A stretch of 64,000 bases of DNA, taken from the NCBI GenBank assembly GCA_022567155.1, contig JADFHN010000011.1, positions 1 through 64,000 of the forward strand, in the 5' to 3' direction. The notes beneath the pieces are model-generated. The model had not been told where the DNA came from. It worked only from the letters and a program-made list of their open reading frames with translations, and did no database searches. The DNA comes from Bacteroidota bacterium. GTDB taxonomy: Bacteria; Bacteroidota; Bacteroidia; Cytophagales; Cyclobacteriaceae. The translations under genes were made by a program, and so were the position numbers. The first letter of the stretch is position 1; each line of letters opens with the position of its first letter. Below, piece by piece: positions 24,929 to 34,707 of the stretch.

Positions 24929-25714
24929 ATGAAAACATTTATGTGGCTGATTTTCATGATACCTGCAGTGTATGCCCTGGGAATTCTCGCAGTATATATG
25001 TTTGAAGATAGCCTCATCTTTCAAACTGCCCACCTCAGCAAGGATCATGATTTTATTTTTGACCAACCCTTCCAGGAGTTTTTTATTCCCACTAGTGACG
25101 GGGAACAACTGAACAATTTGTTATTCAAAACCGAACAACCCGCAAGGGGGTTGATTGTCTATTTTCATGGTAATGCCGGGAATCTGCAGGGATGGGGAAC
25201 ACTGGCAAATGATTTTACACGACTCGGATATGACCTTTTAATAACCGATTACAGGGGGTATGGCAAAAGCACAGGAACTCCGTCGGAAACCGCCCTTTAT
25301 GATGATGCCGAAACAGTCTGGAACTGGGCCCGGTCAAATTACAGCTACGATAAATGGATCATCTACGGTCGCTCGCTGGGCTCTGCCGTTGCTTCAAAGC
25401 TTGCGGTTACTGCCAACCACGATCTCCTGATTCTGGAAACACCTTTTGATGAAATCAAAAGTTTATTTCCTGCTAATTTATTTAAATGGGCCATAAAAAA
25501 TAAGTTTTCCAACCTGGAGTCCGTTCCTCAGGTAAAAACCAGGATCATTATTTTTCAGGGAACGGATGACAATGTTGTGCCTCTATCATCAGCAAATCGT
25601 ATAAAACCTTTGTTAAAAGAAACCGATCAAATGTACATTATTGAGGGAGGAGGACATAATGATCTGAGGGAATTTGCAGCATATCATGAAAAACTGGCAG
25701 AAGTGCTGCCCTGA
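24929..25714 (+). CDS. Membrane-anchored alpha/beta hydrolase, paralogue 1
   Basis: A 261-residue serine hydrolase of the BEM46/ABHD13-like type with one N-terminal membrane helix (residues 5-23). The oxyanion motif is FHGNAGNLQGWG, the nucleophile elbow is GRSLGS, the acid lies in GTDDNVVP and the histidine in GGGHNDLR. A closely similar gene follows after a 600-bp intergenic region (26411-27226). Esterase, lipase or thioesterase activity is plausible; nothing fixes the substrate. The start 36 bp after the Gfo/Idh/MocA gene suggests either co-transcription or a weak local promoter with TTTATTTGCA. Confidence 0.88.
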   Translation: MKTFMWLIFMIPAVYALGILAVYMFEDSLIFQTAHLSKDHDFIFDQPFQEFFIPTSDGEQLNNLLFKTEQPARGLIVYFHGNAGNLQGWGTLANDFTRLGYDLLITDYRGYGKSTGTPSETALYDDAETVWNWARSNYSYDKWIIYGRSLGSAVASKLAVTANHDLLILETPFDEIKSLFPANLFKWAIKNKFSNLESVPQVKTRIIIFQGTDDNVVPLSSANRIKPLLKETDQMYIIEGGGHNDLREFAAYHEKLAEVLP

Positions 25715-26132: not shown

Positions 26133-26410
26133 CGCCGCTTTCCAAATTCAATTTACCGGTTCCGTACACGATTGTCTGATCGCAAATCAAAAGGCTATTT
26201 TTTACTTCACTTAAAAATTATTAGCTTATAACCCAGGAATTGGTATTAGAAAAATGTCATTCTGATAAAATGCGTTATTACTTGCCAGATTCAGATTGGT
26301 TGCCGGGGTAAGTCTATGGTAATTTATTAACCTCATAAATGTTAAGAAATTATCTGTTTACCGGGCAAATTTTGTTGCGTATTTCGGATCTTAATATAAT
26401 TCAATTCAAC

Positions 26411-27226
26411 ATGCTAACCACGCTATTGGTTATTGCACTTATTTATGCCGGACTTTGTCTGCTTTTCTATTTTTTTCAGCATTTTATTTTTTTCAGGCCT
26501 GAAATACTTCCTTCCGCCTTCAGTTACTCCTACGACTTCCCCTTTGAAGAACTGCACTTTGACATGGAAGACGGAGGATACATCAACGGGATCTATTTTA
26601 CGGTGCCTTCGTCACGGGGTGTGGTATATTACCTGAAGGGTAATTCAAGAAGTATAAAAGGTTGGGGAAAATTTGCAAAAGATTTTTTGAGTAATGGATA
26701 TAACATCTTTATGATGGATTACCGGGGTTTTGGTAAAAGCAAGGGTAAACGAACCCAGAAAAAATTATTTGAAGATGCACAATTTATGTACAAATGGCTG
26801 GCAAAAAACTACGATGCAGATAAGATCATCATATATGGCAGATCGCTTGGGAGTGGTATTGCCGCACGTATTGCATCATGGAATAATGCAAGAATGCTTA
26901 TTCTTGACTCGCCGTATTTCAGCTTTTTTTATAACATAAAGCGATTCTTGTTTTTTATGCCACTCCGATGGATCCTGCGATATGATATCCGCACCGACGA
27001 ATACCTGAAAGCTGTAGAATGTCCCGTTTATATCATTCATGGAACCAAAGACCGGTTGATCCCGATTAATCAGAGTGAAAAACTGAAAGCACTCTATCCG
27101 GATAAAATATCGCTTATCAAAATCGAAAATGGTCATCACAACGATCTGACTGATTTTCCGGAATTCTTTGAAACACTTTATGATATCCTGTATGTGAAGC
27201 CGGTAAGTGAAACACCGCAGGCATGA
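26411..27226 (+). CDS. Membrane-anchored alpha/beta hydrolase, paralogue 2
   Basis: A 271-residue paralogue of the 24929 hydrolase. The frame is open from an ATG at 26339, but the ATG at 26411 (MLTTLLVIALIYAGL) aligns its membrane helix with that of the paralogue and is preferred. GRSLGSG, the acid in GTKDRLIP and NGHHNDL keep the catalytic triad. The oxyanion motif reads YLKGNSRSIKGWG, with lysine where the first copy and the family have histidine. The stop overlaps the acyl-CoA ligase start by four bases, tying it to lipid metabolism. Substrate is unknown. Confidence 0.86.
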   Translation: MLTTLLVIALIYAGLCLLFYFFQHFIFFRPEILPSAFSYSYDFPFEELHFDMEDGGYINGIYFTVPSSRGVVYYLKGNSRSIKGWGKFAKDFLSNGYNIFMMDYRGFGKSKGKRTQKKLFEDAQFMYKWLAKNYDADKIIIYGRSLGSGIAARIASWNNARMLILDSPYFSFFYNIKRFLFFMPLRWILRYDIRTDEYLKAVECPVYIIHGTKDRLIPINQSEKLKALYPDKISLIKIENGHHNDLTDFPEFFETLYDILYVKPVSETPQA

Positions 27227-29261: not shown

Positions 29262-31718
29262 TTAAAATTTCAGCACCAGCGACGCAAGAAAGTGGGTTCC
29301 CGCCTGTGGGTAGTACAGGTTTTCCCTGAACTCCTGCCCTCCGCCGATATACCCGTAGGTATAACCGTTTGATTCCCACATGTTGTTAAAAATATTGTTT
29401 ACGAGCAGCGAAAAGCTAATTTCTTTCATAAATTCCGGATAAATTTTATAAATCATCCTCAGGTCATTTACAAAAAACGAGTTGATCACACGGGCGTTGT
29501 TACCTGTATTATCAAGGTATTGTTTACTTACGTATTTCGATATTAAAGCTATTTCGAAGCCCCTGACAAGGTAATAATTTAGCGTACCTCCTGCAATCAC
29601 TGAAGGCGAAAATGAAATATCCGTATCAGAATAGCTGTTTCTGACAATATTATACTCATCCCAGTTCACGCCAAAATCATACAGTACTTCCTCAAAATTC
29701 CTGATTTTATTTCTGCTTAATGTTCCGGTCAGGTTGATGCTGAATTTCTGTCCAAGTTTTGCGGCGGCAGCCAGTTCAATACCGGCACGGTAACTTTCAG
29801 GCACATTGATCCTGATGCCTGACCCCACATCATTTAGTTCACCAGTTAGGACTAACTGGTTTTTGTAGTACATATAATAAAAATTTGCTTCAAGCGAAAA
29901 ATCTGTTCCCCTTTTCCTGTATCCTGCTTCCAAATCATATAATGTTTCGTGTTCAGGAATTCTACCTGCCGGTGCATCAATAAAATCATTCCTGTCAGGT
30001 TCCCGATTACCAACGCTCAACGAAGTATAGATGCTTTGTTCTTGTGCCACATCATATGTAATGCCCATTTTCGGGTTAAAAAACTTAAGATTTTCATCCA
30101 CGTTTAACTGCCGCTGGTCATTATCAATACCCTCCACCTGGTACGCTACGGTTCGGTACTGCAGGTCGCCAAACAAATGCAACCGGTCGTTAACCGAGTA
30201 ACTGGCTTTAACAAATGCGTTGAAATCGTCCTTTTCACCAAGGTTATCATAATATAGCTCCCTGATATCTGTATCTCCGGCGATCCGCATCCAGATAACC
30301 TCGCCAAAATGCTTACCTGAATATCCTGACCATGCTCCGCCGAAAATCAGTTGCAGGTTTGCGGAAGGATTGTAATCAAAAGAAACATTCGTTCCGAATA
30401 AATCATTGTCCAGCCACCTTCTTCTGATTAAGTCGGTTTCCCGGATTGTGTCTCCGCCAATGATCACATCTGCGAATCCATAACCGGCATAATCGTCGTC
30501 CTGCCGGTACTGTTCAAAGTAACCTTCGCCATGAACGTGATAAAACGCAGTATTAAACGTCAGTGAAGGTGTTATATCCTGTGCAAACAAAAGCTGGTAA
30601 TGATCCTGCCGGTAATTATCGGTTTCATCATCGTAGGTGTAATAATTATAGGTACGTCCGGAATTCAGAAGGTTTTCAGCTTCTTGCTGGGTCAACCCGT
30701 TGTTAATGATATATTCCTGCATGCCTTCAACATCGTCATTAAGTCTTGATTCGGGCACACCCCACCATGCCTGGTAGGTTTTTTCACTACCTGAAAATAT
30801 ATTCAGTTTTACCAGAGTAGAACGGCCGTAATAAGCCGCAGAAGTAAAATACGAGTTCAGATCGGAAGCAGCCCTGTCAATGTAACCATCGGAATGAATT
30901 CGCGAAAGCCGTGCATCAAATGCAAATTTATTATTAAGAAGACCGGTTCCTGCCAGGAGTGTGTGCTTGCGGGTGTTGAATGATCCGAATACATTGCTCA
31001 GGGTGGCATAAGGCTGCTCACTGAAGGAGGAAGTCTGAATATTGATAGAAGCCCCAAATGCCCCGGGCCCGTTGGTGGAAGTGCCCACCCCTCGTTGTAC
31101 TTGTATATCCTGTACCGAAGACACGAGATCAGGAAGGTCCACCCAATACACACCCTGTGACTCAGGATCATTCAGCGGAATGCCGTTTATGGTAACATTG
31201 ATTCTTGTAGCATCGCTTCCGCGGATTCGAATGCCCGTATAGCCGACACCTGCCCCCGCATCCGAGGTGATAACTACAGAAGGTAGCTGGTTGAGAAGAA
31301 ACGGTAAGTCCATCCCGAAATTTTGCTTTTCGATTTCCTCCTTTTTAAGTACCGAATACGTCATGGATGATTTATCGGTTGCCCTGGTAGCGGTCACAAT
31401 CACTTCATCGGTCATAATGGCGGCGGGGATCATCAATATATCCAATTCCAGATCACCGTTAACAGTTATCAGTCTGCTCACTTTTTCATACCCCAGATAC
31501 GAAATCACCAGCCTATAATCTCCTTTACTTATCCCTGTAAGAAGAAAAGAACCGTCTTTTCTGCTGAACGTTGCCTTGCCCGCATTTTTAAGCCGGATAT
31601 TCGCACCGGTAAGCGCAACCTGGTTGTCGCTGTCTGATATCTTACCGGATACTTTGAACTGCCCGTACACGTTCATTGCCAGCAGTCCAAGAACTGTGAT
31701 GAGTGTTAAAATCTTCAT
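29262..31718 (-). CDS. TonB-dependent outer-membrane receptor, probably for thiamine compounds
   Basis: An 818-residue outer-membrane receptor. Order: signal peptide (1-19, ending NVYGQ), a CarboxypepD-regulatory-like domain (about 20-105, with FKVSGKISDSDNQVALTGANI), plug with IRIRGSDATRINVTINGIPLNDPE, and a beta-barrel ending in THFLASLVLKF with the terminal phenylalanine. The start is 46 bp after a TPP riboswitch on the same strand, so expression should fall when thiamine pyrophosphate is plentiful. That makes thiamine or a phosphate ester the likely ligand, an inference from regulation and not from the protein. A PnuC-family transporter and a NadR-like kinase lie upstream on the same strand. 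Confidence 0.93.
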   Translation of the reverse strand: MKILTLITVLGLLAMNVYGQFKVSGKISDSDNQVALTGANIRLKNAGKATFSRKDGSFLLTGISKGDYRLVISYLGYEKVSRLITVNGDLELDILMIPAAIMTDEVIVTATRATDKSSMTYSVLKKEEIEKQNFGMDLPFLLNQLPSVVITSDAGAGVGYTGIRIRGSDATRINVTINGIPLNDPESQGVYWVDLPDLVSSVQDIQVQRGVGTSTNGPGAFGASINIQTSSFSEQPYATLSNVFGSFNTRKHTLLAGTGLLNNKFAFDARLSRIHSDGYIDRAASDLNSYFTSAAYYGRSTLVKLNIFSGSEKTYQAWWGVPESRLNDDVEGMQEYIINNGLTQQEAENLLNSGRTYNYYTYDDETDNYRQDHYQLLFAQDITPSLTFNTAFYHVHGEGYFEQYRQDDDYAGYGFADVIIGGDTIRETDLIRRRWLDNDLFGTNVSFDYNPSANLQLIFGGAWSGYSGKHFGEVIWMRIAGDTDIRELYYDNLGEKDDFNAFVKASYSVNDRLHLFGDLQYRTVAYQVEGIDNDQRQLNVDENLKFFNPKMGITYDVAQEQSIYTSLSVGNREPDRNDFIDAPAGRIPEHETLYDLEAGYRKRGTDFSLEANFYYMYYKNQLVLTGELNDVGSGIRINVPESYRAGIELAAAAKLGQKFSINLTGTLSRNKIRNFEEVLYDFGVNWDEYNIVRNSYSDTDISFSPSVIAGGTLNYYLVRGFEIALISKYVSKQYLDNTGNNARVINSFFVNDLRMIYKIYPEFMKEISFSLLVNNIFNNMWESNGYTYGYIGGGQEFRENLYYPQAGTHFLASLVLKF

Positions 31719-32029
31719 CTTTTATCTCTTTTATTGTTGAAACTTATCCGGAGAAAGGGGTAATTCCCGGATTGATCATCCTTCCCTGCGTCCGCATTAT
31801 CGAAATCAGGTTCAAAGGGTATAATCTCAGCCTGAACTTTTAAGGCACCCCAATAGAGATAACACAATATTAATAATAAAAAAGGTTTTTTCCTAAAATT
31901 AAATTGTGGTTTATAACAAAATTCCAGAAGCAAAAGGCAATGATCTTACGCACAGTTGTAAGGGTTAAGGAGATTGTTTTCGGTAAAGTCGCTTCCATCA
32001 GGTTTTCAGTGAAGCAATAAGAGCCATCT
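31719..32029 (-). other. Leader region of the TonB receptor gene
   Basis: This 311-bp gap contains the TPP riboswitch (31771-31858) and its expression platform. The ATCCGG/CCGGAT pair next to the aptamer, at about 31746-31774, could form a sequestering hairpin. The distal part, 31870-32029, has no recognisable element. An open frame crosses the aptamer and is not a gene. Confidence 0.7.
31771..31858 (-). promoter_or_regulatory. TPP (THI-box) riboswitch
   Basis: Read on the minus strand, the aptamer shows GGGGTGCC, then AGGCTGAGATTATACCC, GAACCTGAT, and GATAATGCGG followed by GCAGGGAAGG. These are the invariant blocks of the thiamine-pyrophosphate riboswitch, in order and with normal spacing. 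It controls the TonB receptor gene starting at 31718. Confidence 0.95.
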
Positions 32030-32548
32030 TTACCCGGTTATCAATATATTGCTCACTGCGGAAACAGCCTCGTTTAACCGGCATTTACCTAGTCCTTTAA
32101 TGATTTTAAATGGCAGGTTTCTGCTTTGCAATTCTTTAAGGTATAATAAAAATATCTTATCCCGATGTTGTGGATGCTCACGTAATGGATCGGGTGTCCA
32201 GGGCATATCCGGGTAAGTCAAAAGGTACAAGTCGTAAGATAGCCGGTTCAGTTGGTTGACGATCCAGCGATGACAACGGCCGTATTTATATTGACTCCAA
32301 ATCTTTATAACAGTAAGATCGGTATCAAAAAATACGACTTCGCCTTTACCTGCAATGGCTTCCTGTTCGCGGCGAGCCTGGCCTTTTGCAATCTTAAGCA
32401 AATCTGGTTCATGGTAGGCGCCGCCCTGCTTATTCAAATACTCGCGTGCATATTCCGGTACCCATCGACTGTTGAACGACTCCGCCAGATCCATGGTTAG
32501 TTTTGTCTTTCCGGTAGATTCCGGCCCGAGAATGACAACTTTTTTCAT
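32030..32548 (-). CDS. NadR-like nucleoside kinase / AAA_28 ATPase
   Basis: A 172-residue P-loop protein resembling the ribosylnicotinamide kinase domain of NadR without the adenylyltransferase half. The P-loop is GPESTGKTK (residues 8-16), followed by RWVPEYAREYL, FFDTDLTVIKIWSQYKYG and the lid-like YPDMPWTPDPLREHP. The start overlaps pnuC by four bases, so kinase and transporter act together by phosphorylating and trapping a nucleoside-like vitamin. The usual substrate is nicotinamide riboside. The neighbouring TPP riboswitch raises the possibility of thiamine, which I cannot settle. Confidence 0.85.
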   Translation of the reverse strand: MKKVVILGPESTGKTKLTMDLAESFNSRWVPEYAREYLNKQGGAYHEPDLLKIAKGQARREQEAIAGKGEVVFFDTDLTVIKIWSQYKYGRCHRWIVNQLNRLSYDLYLLTYPDMPWTPDPLREHPQHRDKIFLLYLKELQSRNLPFKIIKGLGKCRLNEAVSAVSNILITG

Positions 32549-33162
32549 GTCCGGGCAGCAGCAACATTTTCCATCGATTTTTTCCAGGAGAAATACCCGA
32601 TGGATGCCAATACAATGTATATGCCATAAAGGGTGGCATAAAAATATATTTCTTTATAAATATAAATGCCGGTAGCCAGGATATCCACGACAATCCAGAA
32701 ATACCAGTTTTCGATTTTCTTACGGGCGGTAAGCCACATGCCTGCCAGGCTGAGCACGGTGGTGGCGCTATCCCAATACGGTACGGCGGCATCCGTGTAT
32801 CTCTCAAATAATGTCCCCATAATCCAAATACCAACTGCACACCCTCCGGTAATCGAGGTCAGAAATTTAAATGATATGGTGGTTACCGGAAGATCGCTCT
32901 TTTCTTTACGGCCCTTTATCCAGAAATACCATCCATAGATATTAAGCACTAAAAACACGAAATGCAATGCAAGGTCTGCATACAGTTTTGTCCGGTAGAA
33001 AATCACAAATGAGATAAAAATATAAATGATCCCTGCAGGCCAGGTAAGAATATTCTCTTTTATCAAATACCAGACTGCCAGAAGCCCGAATATCGATCCC
33101 AAAAGTTCCAGCACATCAATTTGCGCTGCATATGCAATTACCTCCTGCCAAAAATCAGTCAT
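32545..33162 (-). CDS. PnuC/PnuT-family vitamin transporter
   Basis: A 205-residue inner-membrane facilitator of the PnuC fold with seven hydrophobic helices. Family landmarks are YLIKENILTWPAG, LVLNIYGWYFWI and the YFWIVVDILATGIYIYK repeat in the second half. Members move nicotinamide riboside (PnuC), riboflavin (PnuX) or thiamine (PnuT) down a gradient that is kept by phosphorylation. The overlapping NadR-like kinase fits this. Known Bacteroidetes thiamine loci join a TonB receptor, PnuT and a kinase under THI-box control, so thiamine is as likely as NR. The riboswitch here is downstream and does not control this gene directly. Confidence 0.88.
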   Translation of the reverse strand: MTDFWQEVIAYAAQIDVLELLGSIFGLLAVWYLIKENILTWPAGIIYIFISFVIFYRTKLYADLALHFVFLVLNIYGWYFWIKGRKEKSDLPVTTISFKFLTSITGGCAVGIWIMGTLFERYTDAAVPYWDSATTVLSLAGMWLTARKKIENWYFWIVVDILATGIYIYKEIYFYATLYGIYIVLASIGYFSWKKSMENVAAART

Positions 33163-33294: not shown

Positions 33295-34707
33295 TTGAAA
33301 AGACGTGAAGTTATACGAAAAATTGCCTACACGGTACCGGCAGGTATGGCATTTCCGCATCTTCTTGGCTGCACCCTCAACGACGATGACGGGGATTCTG
33401 CATTTACCGGCAAAATTATGGTGATTGGCGCCGGAGCGGCAGGGATGTATATGGCCTTCCTGTTAAATCAGAAAGGTATGGATGTAGAAATACTTGAAGC
33501 ATCAAGCCGGAATGGAGGCAGGGTGCAATATTTGCAAGGATTTTCGGATTTTCCACTCGAACTTGGCGCCGATGAGATTTATGGCAATAATCACATATGG
33601 TACGAACTGATTACCGGCATGGGCATTACCGTTAACGAACGTACACCCCTACCGGTTTATTTTCTCGACGGTGTGCCTGGAACAGCGGAAGATTACCAGA
33701 ATGATACGGATTTTCAGGTGGCGCAGGGGTTTAAAAATGAGATCCCGAATTATCAAGGGTCGGATATCACGATTCAGAATGCCATAACTTCGGCGGGAAT
33801 AAAAAACAGGGTGCATCATATTCTGAATGCTGAAATAGGCAACCGATACGGCACATCAAATGATCGTCTGAGCATACGTGGAGCATCCGTCCAACAAAAC
33901 AGCTTTGAAGGCGGATCCGGGATTTACGTGGCTGAGGGTCAGTCGCATATCACCATTTTTAATTCTGTATTTGCCAGCATCCGCGATAAAATCAAATACA
34001 ATACGCCGGTAACTTCGATTGACTATACCGGTGCTTTGGTAGAGATAAGAGATAGCAACGGTGAAGTTCACAGCGCTGATAAAGTGGTCATTACCGTACC
34101 GATATCGATTTTGAAAGACAGCGATATTTCCTTTACTCCCGCCCTCCCGGGATCAAAATTAAACGCCATTCAAAATCTGGGAATGGATGCGGGAATGAAA
34201 GTGGCGATAGCTTTTAACGCCAACTTCTGGGGTGCAGATACCTCTTCGATAATAAGCGATGGTGTCGTTCCGCGATATTACTCTCCCGGCCTTGCGCGCA
34301 GCAAAACCAACAGTGTGCTTGCAGCTTATATAATGGGTGAGCAGGCCGAATTTCTCAACAGTTTCGAAGACGAACAAATATATGAAACCTTACTAGCTGA
34401 ACTCGACAAGCTGTACCATGGAAATGCCAGCCGGCTGGTAGCCAAAGACAAAGAAGAAAATATTCAGGGTGTAGTCATGAACTGGACCAAAGAGCCCTAC
34501 ATCAAAGGCGCTTATTCATACCCTAAAGTCGGCTCTTCACTGGCCCGCGAGACCCTTGCCTTACCTGTTGAGAATCGCCTTTTCTTTGCCGGTGAAGCTA
34601 CCGGGCTAAAAGGGGATTTCGGCACCGTACAGGGGGCCTTAGACTCAGCCGAAAGGGTACTTGAAGAAATTGTTGAAGCAATAGCCAAAGACCTGGCCTC
34701 ATCCTGA
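33295..34707 (+). CDS. Flavin-containing amine oxidase-like lipoprotein
   Basis: A 470-residue FAD enzyme of the monoamine/polyamine oxidase superfamily carried outside. The start is TTG at 33295; no ATG fits. The N-terminus has KRREVIRKIAY with paired arginines and a lipobox HLLGC (cysteine at about residue 26), suggesting Tat export and lipidation. The dinucleotide site is VIGAGAAGMYMAFLLNQKG with EASSRNGGRVQ. The C-terminus has LFFAGEATGLKGDFGTVQGALDSA, the FAD-closing motif. Substrate is unknown: amines, or a carotenoid or steroid-type substrate. It is divergent from pnuC. Confidence 0.85.
   Translation: MKRREVIRKIAYTVPAGMAFPHLLGCTLNDDDGDSAFTGKIMVIGAGAAGMYMAFLLNQKGMDVEILEASSRNGGRVQYLQGFSDFPLELGADEIYGNNHIWYELITGMGITVNERTPLPVYFLDGVPGTAEDYQNDTDFQVAQGFKNEIPNYQGSDITIQNAITSAGIKNRVHHILNAEIGNRYGTSNDRLSIRGASVQQNSFEGGSGIYVAEGQSHITIFNSVFASIRDKIKYNTPVTSIDYTGALVEIRDSNGEVHSADKVVITVPISILKDSDISFTPALPGSKLNAIQNLGMDAGMKVAIAFNANFWGADTSSIISDGVVPRYYSPGLARSKTNSVLAAYIMGEQAEFLNSFEDEQIYETLLAELDKLYHGNASRLVAKDKEENIQGVVMNWTKEPYIKGAYSYPKVGSSLARETLALPVENRLFFAGEATGLKGDFGTVQGALDSAERVLEEIVEAIAKDLASS

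Follow-up and report, generated by a model that had tools for sequence, protein, structure and literature searches.

What does a small NadR-like kinase phosphorylate when it is encoded, together with a PnuC-family permease, ahead of a thiamine pyrophosphate (TPP) riboswitch and a TonB-dependent receptor? The question is raised by a locus in a 64,000-nucleotide stretch of DNA from a Bacteroidota bacterium of the family Cyclobacteriaceae (assembly GCA_022567155.1, contig JADFHN010000011.1, positions 1 to 64,000; this whole stretch is hereafter called the window). A preliminary description of the DNA had left the choice between nicotinamide riboside (NR) and thiamine open; the comparative analysis reported here answers it by inference, in favour of thiamine. 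We consider it quite probable that the four elements form a thiamine acquisition locus, in which the AAA_28 kinase makes thiamine monophosphate (TMP), ThiL makes TPP and the aptamer controls the receptor only. The features of the locus are the following, in the order of transcription.

33162-32545, minus strand: PnuC-family permease, 205 residues, probably thiamine-type (PnuT-like); Pfam PF04973 (NMN_transporter), E 1.3e-54.
32548-32030, minus strand: standalone NadR-like P-loop kinase, 172 residues, proposed TMP-making thiamine kinase; Pfam AAA_28, E 4.8e-34.
31862-31767, minus strand: TPP riboswitch aptamer (THI element); RF00059, 60.8 bits, E 1.9e-9.
31772-31746, minus strand: CCCC-loop hairpin, candidate expression platform in the interval between aptamer and start codon; fold of -10.5 kcal/mol and comparative leader counts.
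31718-29262, minus strand: TonB-dependent outer-membrane receptor, 818 residues, proposed thiamine receptor; Pfam plug, beta-barrel and CarbopepD_reg_2 domains.

The layout anticipated in the preliminary description is borne out. The aptamer, read there at 31771-31858, is matched by cmscan over the full length of RF00059 (model positions 1-105 of 105) and above the curated gathering cut-off (54.3 bits), with an E-value computed for 64 kb, both strands and 4227 families. It leads into the receptor gene as described, the ATG lying 48 nt downstream and the TonB domains being confirmed by Pfam. The permease and the NadR-like kinase upstream on the same strand are likewise confirmed, their open reading frames (ORFs) overlapping by 4 nt, and a 167-nt gap separates the kinase stop from the aptamer. 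Since permease and kinase precede the aptamer, the receptor is, as judged from position, the sole gene directly under its control. This had also been proposed, and the arrangement is recurrent rather than peculiar to the window's genome; indeed, the same-genus genome G001 keeps the entire locus with 85-91% protein identity. Given the 167-nt gap, it is possible that the aptamer-receptor unit of the window has its own promoter. The window's aptamer is the single TPP match at E <= 0.001 in the 4.09-Mb assembly.

The substrate of the kinase is best approached through the gaps in the pathway. In Escherichia coli, thiamine is converted to TMP by ThiK, an APH-type enzyme, and TMP is converted to TPP by ThiL. 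The route proposed here has the same two steps, but no ThiK match (TIGR02721) was found in the window's genome at E 0.001. Profile searches of this genome (98.7% complete) gave no match to ThiC, ThiE or thiamine pyrophosphokinase (TPK) either, while ThiL is present at full length (314 bits). Because ThiL requires TMP and the genome shows no source of it, a thiamine kinase is needed. The same situation is met in related genomes, of which we compared 59 from genus to order level (window's genome included). ThiC and ThiE are both absent from 35 of them: 30 carry the standalone kinase, one carries TPK (G044) and four carry neither. These four are G002 (58% complete), G006, in which a kinase fragment with stops lies beside an aptamer, G026 (89% complete), which has a NadR-length ORF only, and G057 (1.1 Mb). 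In all, 11 of the 59 genomes lack both the standalone kinase and TPK; in seven of these, ThiC and ThiE are present and a TPP-preceded receptor is missing, so that they can make thiamine and seem not to import it via the receptor. All 30 genomes with the standalone kinase but no match to ThiC or ThiE retain ThiL. These pathway gaps, with no TMP source and ThiL retained, are what decides: thiamine is most likely the substrate of the kinase.

That the kinase uses not thiamine but one of its precursors, hydroxyethylthiazole or HMP, seems to us very improbable. Some TPP loci of relatives do show signs of salvage, with an NMT1/THI5-like protein encoded between aptamers (by Pfam in L034, by similarity of the N-terminus in L046). 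However, joining phosphorylated precursors requires ThiE, to which neither the window's genome nor 35 others of the 59 gave a match, and 32 of these 36 genomes still have the kinase or TPK. The stand-alone correlation between the absence of ThiE and the presence of kinase or TPK was dropped from the argument (p 0.089, see below).

The kinase and TPK also tend to exclude one another. For this comparison, the 59 relatives were joined with the genomes of the window's class from an even sample of the phylum (158 genomes, 39 of them of this class, window's genome included), giving 95 genomes. TPK occurs in none of the 72 genomes with a standalone kinase versus 12 of the 23 others (Fisher p 2.5e-9, kinship not corrected). 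The 12 TPK genomes (G044, G046, G070 with G152, G075 and seven of genus g63) represent about five separate lineages. Kinase fusions of 733-800 residues were counted here as not standalone; when they are counted as kinase, TPK is found in 5 of 77 versus 7 of 18 (p 0.0013), which weakens the exclusion. Five TPK genomes of genus g63 carry the kinase inside such an ORF of 733-800 residues, and the one that was scanned (L183) is an AAA_28-DUF4301 fusion. In a further genome of this genus, G141, which has TPK elsewhere, the locus retains permease, DUF4301, aptamer and receptor, and the kinase domain is lost. Within the class sample alone, 29 of 39 genomes have a kinase unfused to DUF4301 and no TPK, five have TPK only, five have both and none has neither; ThiL is above cut-off in all 39. 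The counts of standalone kinases include G037, G039, G045, G056 and G058, which have no resolved place in the tree or fall outside its main clade, and some kinases of the class sample counted by profile match and ORF length alone; they exclude G006 (the fragment with stops) and both G026 and G046 (NadR-length ORFs only). The 119 sampled genomes outside the class do not enter the 95; among them, 67 have TPK and six have a kinase match in an ORF of 300-412 residues and no TPK. As to the fusions themselves, the kinase-DUF4301 fusion lies at L183:6269-8389, DUF4301 without the kinase is seen at L157:6476-8011, and at L102:10563-12008 the kinase is fused to an aldose-epimerase domain.

Since the kinase occupies the place of TPK within the locus as well as genome-wide, one may wonder whether, like TPK, it yields TPP in a single step by pyrophosphate transfer, which would leave ThiL dispensable. 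We regard this as improbable. ThiL is kept in every one of the 30 kinase genomes without ThiC and ThiE, and the protein folds like the kinase domain of NadR and, at a greater distance, like thymidylate kinases, enzymes that move a single phosphate. The kinase gives no match to the TPK model TIGR01378; only AAA_28 and NadR models match. AlphaFold2 models of kinase and permease are confident (predicted local distance difference test, pLDDT, of 96.5 and 92.2). The kinase model matches the NadR kinase domain (PDB entries 8x7f and 1lw7, with template-modelling (TM) scores of 0.90 and 0.81), and the best PDB match of the permease model is the PnuC structure 4qtn (TM 0.72). Such folds are uninformative on the substrate.

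The window's TonB receptor lies directly behind a TPP aptamer, the position that marks a receptor of the OMthi type, and thiamine is its proposed substrate. Receptor homologues immediately follow TPP aptamers in 47 of the 59 genomes, or in 46 under a stricter rerun, in which the weak receptor of G049 (24% identity) is lost. The kinase or TPK is present in 45 of the 47 genomes with a TPP-preceded receptor versus 3 of the 12 without (p 8.6e-7). The association holds when the G049 receptor is excluded (p 2.7e-6) and when four genomes less than 90% complete are dropped (45 of 46 versus 2 of 9 in the 55 that are left). The three receptor-less genomes with kinase or TPK, G010, G024 and G053, are assemblies of about 900, 320 and 720 contigs.

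The order of the locus recurs too. A TPP match is present in 54 of the 59 genomes, and across these relatives, in many genera, a same-strand permease-kinase pair immediately precedes the aptamer, which is followed by the receptor. Of 88 TPP matches, 86 were first retrieved with their surroundings and the remaining two later; with 24 other sites picked for a nearby kinase or permease, the 86 make 110 TPP sites, some genomes being counted twice. At 47 of the 110 a same-strand kinase lies within 4 kb before the aptamer; both permease and receptor accompany it at 38 of the 47. The aptamer starts at most 75 nt from the kinase stop at 13 of the 47 sites and at most 30 nt from it at nine. As there is little space for a separate promoter at the 13 close-spaced sites, the aptamer there likely lies between cistrons and acts on the last gene.

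Variants of TPP loci were also seen. In some genomes extra genes intervene in the locus, such as that of a fatty-acid desaturase in L045. Tandem TPP aptamers in close succession precede receptor or permease genes in L088, L075, L078, L163, L164 and L189. Permeases behind TPP aptamers and with no adjoining kinase occur at L038:7852-9767, L163:4753-6765, L176:5955-7764 and L189:4910-6638 (in L189 the receptor sits between aptamer and permease), and they are followed by a gene of 357-373 codons that is weakly acyl-CoA-dehydrogenase-like (Pfam, L038 only). Proteins with DUF6687 are encoded beside the receptor or permease of TPP-aptamer loci at L034:5564-6631 and L110:8775-9842. The gene between two aptamers mentioned above, with a receptor after the second aptamer, lies at L034:9102-10331 and L046:9425-10639; it is NMT1/THI5-like by Pfam in L034 and merely similar at the N-terminus in L046.

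The standing of the kinase relative to NadR deserves a closer look. The pair formed by NadR and PnuC shares with the window's pair the kinase-domain fold, the P-loop and a PnuC-family partner. The window's kinase nevertheless differs from NadR by the absence of the fused nicotinamide mononucleotide adenylyltransferase domain (its 172 residues match AAA_28 only), by its place in a separate clade and by the adjoining TPP aptamer and receptor; against the NadR model TIGR01526 it scores 99 bits, below the cut-off of 341. In a first kinase tree, 45 of 64 rows are standalone kinases set apart from NadR kinase domains (support 96/87), and in a second tree with more rows (Rhizobium phage NadR and a duplicate L070 row removed) this holds for 49 of 74 (97/93). 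The permease of L184, labelled NadR-linked in the permease tree for its long kinase ORF only, was relabelled for the kinase tree. A permease-kinase fusion in L218, suspected from an ORF of 376 residues, was ruled out, as Pfam finds AAA_28 only.

The permease tree has 82 rows (74 permeases and eight references, L197 and L187 dropped); its deep order is poorly supported and its bootstrap not settled. E. coli PnuC joins six permeases from the order of the window's genome (95/97), four of them linked to a NadR-length ORF, one to a NadR-kinase-like ORF and one unlinked. The window's permease does not group with this proven NR transporter; it falls in a seven-row clade (100/98), six members of which have a linked kinase and, downstream, a TPP aptamer. 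Thiamine loci surround its relatives, in keeping with the thiamine uptake loci to which the preliminary description had pointed. A 31-row clade (100/98) gathers 21 of the 44 kinase-linked permeases together with those of L038, L163 and L176, which lie behind an aptamer, and that of L189. The Neisseria mucosa PnuC (4qtn) sits on a long branch, its place unsure and weakly joined to a phage permease.

Several observations weigh against thiamine as the common substrate, and they should be set out together. The absence of ThiE, taken alone, is not significantly associated with the presence of kinase or TPK (p 0.089). Outside the class, 46 of the 119 sampled genomes have neither TPK nor a kinase match. 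The permease scores above the NCBIfam cut-off as an NR transporter (TIGR01528, 96.9 versus 42.45 bits), and the reference permeases are so divergent that the Bacteroides PnuT reference finds no place in the tree. Among permeases of genomes outside the class, four that are NadR-linked (L147, L156, L174 and L178) also stand apart from E. coli PnuC. The last position of the WxxWxxxD/N motif, tried as a mark of specificity, was rejected: D is found in NadR-linked and in thiamine-linked permeases, and N in some TPP-controlled ones. Outside the 49-row kinase clade remain a Flavobacteriaceae-type group of five rows, L098 and several low-scoring rows. Beyond the relatives, named genomes contain at least 54 loci with the kinase, mostly in Bacteroidota (Pontibacter, Hymenobacter, Flavobacteriaceae and others), and among the matches listed a TPP aptamer was found at 19 of the 45 named kinase loci scanned. 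It was found in 11 of 61 sources with kinase-permease pairs, within the stretch examined, and at none of 11 loci scanned with Rfam (nine from Proteobacteria, a planctomycete and others, and two of the 45). Finally, the transcripts of the transport operons of Bacteroides thetaiotaomicron do not respond to thiamine, according to the available text of PMC5613172.

These observations bear on the simplest competing account, namely that permease and kinase are an ordinary NR salvage pair (PnuC and ribosylnicotinamide kinase) that happens to precede a thiamine receptor gene. The label given to the permease by annotation models, the fold that the kinase shares with NadR and the many homologous pairs without a nearby TPP aptamer would all fit it. 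Because such loci lack the aptamer, a kinase-permease pair alone is no proof of thiamine use, and the kinases of Proteobacteria and Planctomycetes may be NR kinases. For the window's locus, however, we find an NR pair unlikely. It would explain neither the exclusion of TPK by the kinase nor the retention of ThiL in genomes with no other source of TMP, and a chance neighbourhood sits badly with an order of permease, kinase, TPP aptamer and receptor that recurs across many genera. In addition, G019 and G107 possess a NadR-permease pair elsewhere in the genome and still keep the standalone kinase, as does G035 beside a permease with a NadR or NadR-kinase-like partner, and E. coli PnuC groups with NadR-linked permeases and not with the window's.

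If the locus serves thiamine acquisition, as we favour, the TonB receptor would carry thiamine across the outer membrane and the PnuC-family permease would pass it through the inner membrane. The standalone kinase would then phosphorylate it to TMP, trapping thiamine inside the cell, and ThiL, whose gene lies elsewhere in the genome, would convert TMP to TPP. TPP would bind the aptamer and shut off the receptor only, the costly entry gate. In this scheme thiamine as substrate of receptor, permease and kinase, and TMP as product, are deduced from sequence comparison.

How might the aptamer control the receptor? Between it and the start codon, the window's hairpin (31772-31746) presents a CCCC loop at 31757-31760; it is complementary to the aptamer's invariant GGGG (31848-31851), the 5' strand of helix P2. 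We scanned leaders over 130 nt starting 8 nt before the aptamer end, a span that can extend past the start codon, for hairpins with CCCC in the loop and five or more stem pairs, each G-U pair counting half. Such a hairpin is present in 36 of 73 receptor leaders behind TPP aptamers (shuffles: mean 2.2, maximum 5 in 60 rounds) and in 4 of 44 other TPP leaders (shuffle mean 0.9). CCCC ranks first among the 256 loop tetramers (36, against a shuffle mean of 1.7 in 10 rounds). The 36 hairpins show 30 distinct 5' stems, so the pairing is conserved while the sequence varies. In the window, the GGGG is paired at 98% with the aptamer imposed and at 47% in the free fold, and the CCCC is unpaired in both; the loop-GGGG contact is a pseudoknot, beyond the scoring of the folding program. 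The single-sequence fold of the window's leader was unconvincing alone (z-score -1.63), and the comparative count was used instead. Several leaders (e.g. L073, L049, L058 and L093) also have a short recurring AUGUUUNACC-like string behind the CCCC hairpin.

A plausible switch would work as follows. Without TPP, the CCCC loop of the hairpin would pair with the aptamer's GGGG; with TPP, P2 would retain the GGGG, and the freed hairpin near the start codon would block the receptor. The direction, with TPP as the off signal, is inferred from the usual role of TPP riboswitches as off-switches. Control of the receptor would probably be exerted at the level of translation, via this hairpin. Intrinsic terminators were considered as a general platform and rejected: under a simple rule, a terminator-like site occurs in only 7 of 48 receptor leaders, and none was found in the window's leader. 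The scarcity of such sites argues for translational control, as do the unresponsive transcripts of B. thetaiotaomicron (PMC5613172) and the small number of surveyed TPP riboswitches with transcriptional activity. In what is accessible of that survey, which includes Bacteroides data, they amount to 6 of 57, none of them from Bacteroides (PMC12121620). The action of TPP riboswitches in Bacteroidota is called uncertain in the available portion of PMC5613172, and the open-access literature, as far as its texts could be consulted in part, yielded no description of such a CCCC hairpin platform.

The locus can be compared with known systems. In B. thetaiotaomicron, OMthi and PnuT (BT2390 and BT2396-BT2397 loci) owe their thiamine role to genetics and heterologous transport, as given in the accessible part of PMC5613172. 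The Bacteroides OMthi/pnuT/tnr3 genes and the window's locus both combine a TPP aptamer, a TonB receptor, a PnuC-family permease and a kinase. On a Bacteroides finegoldii plasmid (L205) the order is TPP aptamer, TonB receptor, PnuC and TPK, all three genes coming after the aptamer, whereas in the window the kinase is of the AAA_28 type and lies with the permease before the aptamer. The leader of L205 is short and without CCCC, unlike the window's with its CCCC hairpin. In Sphingomonas (L206), TPP aptamer, TonB receptor, APH phosphotransferase and PnuC follow one another, the kinase being unrelated to AAA_28; in Acinetobacter (L208) the order is APH, TonB and PnuC, with no TPP match within the examined stretch. 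The window's kinase would thus fill the role that TPK has in loci of Bacteroidales and that an APH-type phosphotransferase has in those of Proteobacteria. That three unrelated kinases (TPK, APH and AAA_28) accompany one transporter pair would be expected from metabolic trapping of thiamine, by analogy among these systems. In Baltic data, omr1 and pnuC are counted as B1 uptake genes and dominate Bacteroidetes B1 expression, according to the text available from PMC12442306.

The neighbourhood of the locus contributed little to the argument. A flavin amine-oxidase-like gene (33295-34707, plus strand) diverges from the permease-kinase pair; it was rejected as a component of the system, a divergent homologue standing beside the kinase in only 7 of 72 kinase loci. 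These seven include four with a kinase but no adjoining permease (L198, L199, L201 and L202). Two adjacent, similar-looking ORFs of the alpha/beta-hydrolase type are found at 24929-25714 and 26339-27226 (plus strand; from the ORF list only).

We place at about an even chance the broader proposal that the standalone AAA_28 kinases, a widespread clade matched at present by NadR models only, constitute a new thiamine kinase family that feeds ThiL in Bacteroidota lacking TPK, with a TPP switch that is often intercistronic and acts through an undescribed CCCC-GGGG platform. In the portions of the open-access literature that were available, which comprised the Bacteroides system and broad surveys (among them PMC5613172, PMC7221760, PMC12442306, PMC2258182, PMC6593275 and PMC12121620), no NadR-like kinase was found named as a thiamine kinase. 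If the proposal is true, it would identify the thiamine kinase missing from many Bacteroidota other than Bacteroidales and correct, in their genomes, the annotation of permease and kinase as NR-type. The CCCC hairpin would offer a concrete and testable model for the action of TPP riboswitches in this phylum. Non-orthologous replacement would be cleanly illustrated by a single uptake locus that occurs with three unrelated kinases, and thiamine auxotrophy and cross-feeding would become readable from genomes that seem unable to use thiamine.

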